Positions 41,042-42,569 of a stretch of 64,000 nt of DNA are shown here, piece by piece; the first letter of the stretch is position 1; each line of letters begins with the position of its first letter. The translations under genes and the position numbers were made by a program. This DNA comes from Erysipelotrichaceae bacterium (GTDB lineage Bacteria > Bacillota_I > Bacilli_A > Erysipelotrichales > Erysipelotrichaceae). The notes below the pieces were generated by a model, which worked only from the letters and a program-made list of their open reading frames with translations, did no database searches and was not told the DNA's origin. The stretch lies in NCBI GenBank assembly GCA_022772735.1, contig JALEZD010000009.1, positions 1-64,000 on the forward strand, read 5' to 3'.

Positions 41042-41139
41042 TTGTTTATTAATTAAAAAAATTTTTTAAAATATTAGAATTTATTAATTGAATAAATTTA
41101 AAAATAGTGTTAATTTATAAAGGCAGGAGGGTTATATTT

Positions 41140-41208
41140 ATGGACGATTTGCCGTGTAATTACAATATTAAATACAACACAGATATAGCTCTTAATATCT
41201 CTTTTTAA
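41140..41208 (+). CDS. Candidate leader peptide upstream of mgtE
   Basis: This 22-residue open frame begins Met-Asp-Asp-Leu-Pro and ends with Ile-Ser-Phe. It is preceded by a strong AGGAGGG site eight bases before the ATG, better than that of mgtE itself. The early acidic-acidic-X-Pro sequence resembles the ribosome-destabilising starts of leader peptides that sense low magnesium in enterobacteria (MgtL). Its 3' part overlaps two alternative RNA hairpins. It is too short for similarity arguments, so translation and function are inferred from ribosome binding site, position and target gene. Confidence 0.55.
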   Translation: MDDLPCNYNIKYNTDIALNISF

Positions 41209-41220
41209 GATGTTATATCT
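41181..41220 (+). promoter_or_regulatory. Alternative hairpins (attenuator-like) in the mgtE leader
   Basis: Structure 1 pairs AGATAT (41181-41186) with ATATCT (41195-41200), followed by CTTTTT, and looks like a terminator. Structure 2 pairs AGATATA (41181-41187) with TATATCT (41214-41220) plus inner TCTTAA (41190-41195) with TTAAGA (41205-41210). The two exclude each other because both use 41181-41186. Both overlap the end of the leader peptide, so ribosome position there could choose between them. Confidence 0.5.
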
Positions 41221-41237
41221 TAGAAAGGGAAGATAAA

Positions 41238-42569
41238 ATGAATGTTGAAAAAATAATTGAACTATTAAAAAATAATGAATTAAAAGAATTACATGAGTAC
41301 TTAATTACTCAAAACTCTGTAGATATTGCAGAAATGATGTCTGATTTAGATGACAATCATTTGGCAGTAGTGTATAGGTTATTAGAAAAAGAACAAGCAG
41401 CTTCAGTATTTTCTTATTTAGAGTCTGAAGAAAGAAATAGATTGATAAAAATATTTAATAACTCAGAAATTGTTAAAGTAATAAATGAATTATATGCGGA
41501 TGATGCCGTTGACTTTTTATCTGGAATGCCTGCAAATCTTGTTACACAGCTTTTAGATAAAGTTGATGCGGATGTAAGAAAAGATATTAATAATCTGCTT
41601 CAATACAAGGATGATACTGCAGGAAGTATAATGACTGTTGAGTTTATCGAATTTACCGAAAATATGAGCGTTAAACAAGCTCTTGATAAGATAAAAAGAG
41701 TTGGTATTGATAGTGAAACAGTTTATACATGTTATGTAGTTGATAATCGTAAATTGATTGGGATTGTTAGTGCAAAAAATTTGATGCTTAGCGATTATGA
41801 AACATTAATTAAAGATATAATGAAAACAGAGTATGTTTTTGCGCATACTAGTGATGATAAAGAAGATATTGCAAAAAAGTTGCAAAAATACGATTTGATT
41901 GCATTGCCAGTTTTAGATGAAGAAGGTTGTATTGTAGGTATTGTAACATTTGACGATGCGATTGATGTTTTAACAAAAGAAATGACAGAAGATATGCAAA
42001 AGATGGCTGCAATGACAGCGAATGATAAACCATACCTTGCAACATCAGTTTGGGAACATGCAAAAAATAGGGTTTTATGGCTTTTGATTTTGATGTTTTC
42101 TGCAACAATAACAGGTAGTATTATCTCTCAATATGAACATGCATTTGAAATAATGCCTATTTTAGTTTCATTTATTCCTATGCTTATGGATACAGGTGGA
42201 AATTGTGGTTCACAAAGTTCTACATTGATTATTCGTGGATTAGCAACTGATGAAATTAAGTTTAGTGATTATTTTAAAATTGTATTTAAAGAATTTAGAA
42301 TTTCAATGATTGTTAGTTTAGCGCTAGCATTTGCGAATGGATTAAGAATTTTGTTAATAAATAAAGATGTTAAACTGGCAATAGTTGTATCTTTATCAAT
42401 AGTTGCGACAGTTATGATTGCAAAACTTGTTGGTTGTACATTGCCTATGGCAGCAAAGAAAATAAAATTAGATCCAGCTATAATGGCTGCGCCAATGATA
42501 ACAACAATTGTAGATACATTTGCGATTATTATTTATTTTTCTATAGCATCACATATGTTTCATCTTTAG
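41238..42569 (+). CDS. mgtE: Magnesium transporter MgtE
   Basis: The 443-residue protein has the MgtE plan: an N-terminal superhelical domain (about 1-130), paired CBS domains (about 135-250) with GSIMTVEFIEF and IMKTEYVFAH, a plug helix, and five membrane helices (about 280-443). The pore region has PMLMDTGGNCGSQSSTL (about 313-329). CBS domains gate the channel according to cytoplasmic Mg2+. Many Bacillota mgtE genes have a riboswitch; here the leader instead has a short peptide and hairpins. AAAGGGAAG precedes the ATG. Confidence 0.96.
   Translation: MNVEKIIELLKNNELKELHEYLITQNSVDIAEMMSDLDDNHLAVVYRLLEKEQAASVFSYLESEERNRLIKIFNNSEIVKVINELYADDAVDFLSGMPANLVTQLLDKVDADVRKDINNLLQYKDDTAGSIMTVEFIEFTENMSVKQALDKIKRVGIDSETVYTCYVVDNRKLIGIVSAKNLMLSDYETLIKDIMKTEYVFAHTSDDKEDIAKKLQKYDLIALPVLDEEGCIVGIVTFDDAIDVLTKEMTEDMQKMAAMTANDKPYLATSVWEHAKNRVLWLLILMFSATITGSIISQYEHAFEIMPILVSFIPMLMDTGGNCGSQSSTLIIRGLATDEIKFSDYFKIVFKEFRISMIVSLALAFANGLRILLINKDVKLAIVVSLSIVATVMIAKLVGCTLPMAAKKIKLDPAIMAAPMITTIVDTFAIIIYFSIASHMFHL

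Follow-up and report, generated by a model that had tools for sequence, protein, structure and literature searches.

The window, a 64,000-nucleotide stretch of contig JALEZD010000009.1 from an Erysipelotrichaceae bacterium, carries the magnesium transporter gene mgtE (443 aa; 41238–42569, + strand), which is the single mgtE of this genome. Upstream on the same strand lies a 22-codon upstream open reading frame (uORF; MDDLPCNYNIKYNTDIALNISF including the stop, 41140–41208, +), whose ATG at 41140 is preceded by the strong Shine-Dalgarno (SD) site AGGAGGG (41125–41131, +) and whose stop ends at 41208, the mgtE ATG at 41238 following 29 nt on. The codons for Asp-Asp-Leu-Pro (41143–41154, +) come directly after the start and match other mgtE uORFs in position and composition; by analogy with the EPDP of MgtL and with D2 and E5 of MgtQ, they may constitute a putative ribosome-destabilising segment. 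The first-pass annotation had described this frame, its AGGAGGG site, its MDDLP start and alternative hairpins upstream of mgtE, all of which are borne out by the sequence and by folding. Such an arrangement is rare in the genome: in 393 kb of it, 193 genes follow a gap of 60 nt or more, only 6 of these have a strong-SD uORF, and among those six the uORF of mgtE is the only one with an acidic start.

The leader RNA is more stably folded than its shuffles (z = −3.6) and can be divided into four regions, all on the + strand. Region 1 (GGGUUAUAU, 41129–41137), on the SD side of the uORF, has region 2 as its partner, while region 2 (AGAUAUAGCUCUU, 41181–41193), within the 3′ part of the uORF, could pair with region 1 or region 3, and region 3 (AAGAUGUUAUAUCU, 41207–41220), at and after the uORF stop, with region 2 or the region 4 side. 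Two of the predicted pairings are mutually exclusive: the first joins AGAUAUAGC (41181–41189) with GUUAUAUCU (41212–41220), and the second joins the 5′ arm of a sequestering hairpin, UCUCUUUUUAAGAUG (41198–41212, +), with its 3′ arm, UAUCUUAGAAAGGGA (41216–41230, +), the latter being region 4, whose stem is kept by relatives with other sequence. The mgtE SD, GAAAGGG (41223–41229, +), falls inside this hairpin, with a predicted unpaired probability of 0.00 in the absence of a ribosome. According to folding, the resting structure combines 1:2 with 3:4 and the alternative is 2:3, a topology that is the same as that of Salmonella mgtQ.

One of the hairpins had initially been noted as being followed by CTTTTT. 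The run is present, but its reading as a terminator tail does not hold, since in the stabler fold it forms the anti-SD part of the 5′ arm (CUUUUU) and pairs with GAAAGGG. A terminator-like site was sought in the window and none was found; transcription attenuation in the window was ruled out, because no stem with a U run precedes mgtE. The end point in the window is best read, from the predicted folds, as sequestration of the SD and thus control of translation, so that termination as an output had to be abandoned for this locus.

The comparison took in 233 regions upstream of mgtE, from Erysipelotrichales and further families in its class and from 80 named GTDB loci (chiefly of Lachnospiraceae and other Clostridia, with Holdemania, Holdemanella and Eggerthia added). 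In each region, one uORF was chosen by its SD alone, the best being taken whatever the peptide. Strong-SD uORFs occurred in 89 of the 173 mgtE regions without a coding sequence immediately before the gene, versus 8 of 320 other genes from the same loci and the window genome, one of these eight being itself an mgtE leader (nominal p = 3e-39, related loci not being independent). Relatives keep both the frame and its SD, and the lack of conservation that would have refuted the first-pass reading was not seen. Asp or Glu stood at position 2 in 28 of the 53 non-redundant mgtE uORFs and in 2 of 41 control peptides, and at least two D/E/P residues were found at residues 2–6 in 31/53 versus 1/41 (p = 1.5e-9), the controls being drawn from the AT-rich window genome irrespective of SD strength. 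Among the usual starts are MDDLP, MDDSP, MDELPS, MDEIPK, MDERPR, MDGSPH, MDDKPGGS, MDNPGGS and MEVPDH; farther families of the class have MDSYPS, MDSGPL, MDGSPS or MDGYGS in some cases and none in others. Some mgtE uORFs are non-acidic at residues 2–6, and part of them carry an acidic/Pro motif later, e.g., SDQVPLC. Codons 2–9 are under purifying selection (pN/pS 0.38, 0.24–0.57), and later codons are nearly free (0.89, 0.68–1.19). A −10-like box just 5′ of the uORF was present in 39 of 60 leaders, compared with 19% of background windows, suggesting that transcripts of many relatives probably have the uORF as their first ORF.

In a further class, the uORF overruns the start of mgtE and stops 14–52 nt or more inside the gene (L009–L012, L061, L062, L064, L065, L069, L072, L085, L093, L097–L100, L106–L117 and L121), and many of these uORFs have an EPLS, VPEP or QVPLC motif a few residues in. 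This class possibly represents a different nascent-chain signal or plain occlusion. The MgtE of the window (41238–42569), compared with those of L002, L031 and L003, stands nearer to that of Eggerthia catenaformis (75%), which belongs to another family, than to those of two genomes labelled as the same genus (65–66%), a pattern that suggests gene transfer or a labelling problem. Further close relatives were sought in the genome set searched, and none was found.

The helices are also conserved in form. Four relatives (L002, L031, L032 and L033) keep the four-region topology with different stems. In the 2:3 helix, aligned with registers set by hand, pairing holds at all aligned positions in the five species, and at five of these positions both sides have changed. 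The compensatory changes looked for in both hairpins were found for 2:3, which covaries, and the 3:4 stem is kept among relatives with a differing sequence. By inspection, the last hairpin of two leaders labelled as the same genus (L003 and L004) and of two others (L034 and L035) resembles an intrinsic terminator, its stem being followed by a U run; there the 3′ part of the uORF pairs with this hairpin over about 10 to 18 bases. Shuffling of duplexes between leader and hairpin proved too permissive, with results only partly significant, and a contiguous-helix test with control regions was used instead; the best pair of exclusive helices exceeded dinucleotide shuffles (p ≤ 0.05) in 26 of 34 leaders, whereas among intergenic controls the same held for 8 of 70 (Mann-Whitney p = 1.3e-9).

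The M-box (RF00380) represses Mg2+ transporter genes, often mgtE, and its RNA aptamer itself senses Mg2+. It resembles the window leader in its link to Mg2+ transporter genes and differs in that sensing by the aptamer. Rfam searching returned nothing over the window and nothing locally above the gathering score, so that a known riboswitch was rejected there, and the M-box aptamer covariance model was likewise unmatched, in agreement with the first-pass annotation, which had seen no M-box. The same model matched 5′ of the acidic mgtE uORF in seven relatives (L005, L006, L007, L024, L166, L170 and L183). Leaders that combine an M-box with an acidic uORF hold two possible Mg2+ sensors in series.

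Acidic uORFs are not confined to mgtE. A subset of corA genes from the same order is preceded by uORFs starting with MSPEPE, MSPEPD or MTPEPEP (L258, L262, L263, L265, L267–L275, L278 and L315), in leaders with a conserved TATAAT (−10) and a GAAAGAAGGTG site, where a CAGGAG...CUCCUG hairpin adjoins the corA SD; the alignment of these leaders yields one hairpin with little covariation because the stem is nearly invariant. The window genome's own corA has no such uORF. Several Mg2+ P-type ATPase (mgtA-type) genes likewise have acidic uORFs, such as MDLDSSS, MDSDSHE, MEDSPHC and MEGQSC...DDDPLG (L285, L288, L289, L294, L295, L300, L301, L326 and L327), which were absent from the lower-scoring, probably Ca-type paralogues examined (L302–L313). 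For CorA and MgtA, these observations come from small samples. The presence of acidic uORFs before three unrelated Mg2+ transporter families in many gut Firmicutes suggests that Mg2+ is sensed via translation.

Among described systems, the closest in anatomy is MgtQ, an 8-codon uORF between Salmonella mgtC and mgtB in which Asp2 and Glu5 are required (PMC8092293). It shares with the window leader a strong SD, early acidic residues (positions 2 and 5 in MgtQ), the choice between 1:2 + 3:4 and 2:3, a transporter SD hidden in 3:4 and translational control (PMC8092293), and differs in its P-type ATPase target within an operon, its enterobacterial host and its shorter peptide, as opposed to mgtE and 22 codons here. 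The window leader may thus be termed MgtQ-like by anatomy. In Salmonella and E. coli, the EPDP sequence of MgtL drops ribosomes at low Mg2+ and thereby turns on the importer mgtA; MgtL has a similar acidic/Pro start just past Met (PMC11282234), but acts through Rho-dependent termination, instead of SD sequestration as here or a terminator-like stem as in relatives. In Mycobacterium tuberculosis, uORF2 behind the pe20 Mbox is likewise small and conserved, lies in a Mg2+-linked leader and keeps a proline near its N-terminus; it differs in being under the control of an M-box translational platform, in its genus-specific peptide and in not being an mgtE-sequestering switch (PMC12810186). The Thioalkalivibrio mgtE motif is likewise a structured RNA upstream of mgtE, and the SD of the gene lies within it, but it belongs to one Gram-negative genus and is a riboswitch candidate for which the text consulted describes no uORF (PMC11109978); it is a different element from the window leader.

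Taken together, the leader is likely to sense Mg2+ through a nascent peptide that destabilises ribosomes and to pass the signal to an RNA switch, with translation as its output in the window. The first-pass proposal of a translation-coupled Mg2+ attenuator with an MgtL-like N-terminus in a Gram-positive bacterium is strongly supported, as a class, by conservation, selection on codons 2–9, covarying helices, co-occurrence with M-boxes and the corA and mgtA uORFs. We infer that ribosomes of these bacteria are destabilised by the peptide, with Mg2+ as the signal, and that regulation runs in the following direction. The uORF would be loaded strongly by ribosomes, and with ample Mg2+ these would pass Asp-Asp-Leu-Pro, reach the uORF stop and cover region 2, blocking 2:3; after the ribosome departs, 3:4 would mask the mgtE SD and keep the gene off. 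At low Mg2+, destabilised ribosomes would abort in the first codons and leave region 2 free while region 3 is transcribed, so that 2:3 could form, expose the mgtE SD and switch the gene on. In same-genus relatives, 3:4 is replaced by the terminator-like stem, and in the overrunning class full translation of the uORF would occlude the mgtE start.

With the nascent RNA folded as far as a 3′ end past region 3, P(2:3) was 0.81–0.98 in 8 of 9 leaders, either without a ribosome or with one at codons 2–5, the ninth leader (L033) giving 0 and 0.52. Exclusion of 2:3 with a ribosome at the stop is partly built into the model, since region 2 lies under the ribosome's footprint. In the equilibrium model of the full-length RNA, every ribosome state tested favoured 3:4 apart from the one with the ribosome at the stop of the uORF; that state exposed the mgtE SD in 22 of 33 leaders (from 0.00 to 0.89 in L001), against the expected sign. 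This result would fit coupling of the opposite sign and implies that the switch must be kinetic; the proposed sign would hence depend on co-transcriptional kinetics, importer physiology and the contexts with overlapping uORFs and M-boxes. The equilibrium exposure is also what ordinary translational coupling would predict, in which a ribosome finishing the uORF melts 3:4 and mgtE is translated, peptide and Mg2+ being secondary. Such coupling appears unlikely as the main explanation, since it leaves unexplained the acidic/Pro N-termini, the confinement of selection to codons 2–9, the covarying 2:3 helix and the association with Mg2+ transporters of three families, and in L031, L032 and L002 the SD stays hidden even with a ribosome at the stop.

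A uORF with alternative helices is also the classic attenuator layout, and Cys or Pro-Leu-Cys motifs occur in some peptides, so that the same uORF could instead sense charged tRNA (Pro, Asp or Cys) or a translation inhibitor. This seems quite improbable, however, given that single-amino-acid runs are absent, that D and E are interchangeable at position 2 with mixed codons (GAC 9, GAT 12, GAA 6, GAG 1), and that the genomic link is to Mg2+ transporters and M-boxes. The high degree of structure and the covarying helices could likewise be expected from an undescribed RNA-only riboswitch with an incidental uORF, but selection at the codon level together with conservation of the SD implies translation and argues against it, as do the lack of conserved aptamer-like sequence, the stems that differ among close relatives and the lack of an Rfam match; we regard it as very improbable. 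Although short frames and A-U hairpins are frequent in an AT-rich genome, a chance ORF with chance hairpins is hardly credible and, barring gross annotation errors at these loci, was ruled out by the control-gene counts (6/193 and 8/320), together with the control regions and conservation.

The open-licence PMC literature searched yielded no account of Gram-positive acidic leader peptides upstream of mgtE, corA or mgtA; ribosome-destabilising Mg2+ leader peptides have been described in enterobacteria (mgtL and mgtQ). With the window leader read as a nascent-peptide Mg2+ sensor, our results incline us slightly towards a general nascent-peptide Mg2+ code in Firmicutes, in which acidic/Pro uORFs before MgtE, CorA and MgtA would read Mg2+ via ribosome stability and act through at least three outputs, namely SD sequestration, an intrinsic terminator and occlusion by a uORF that overlaps the gene, at times with an M-box in front of the uORF. 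If this is true, the occurrence of the same anatomy before three unrelated families with varied RNA outputs would make translation a widespread Mg2+ sensor, and these bacteria would provide many natural leaders with which to test which nascent chains destabilise ribosomes.
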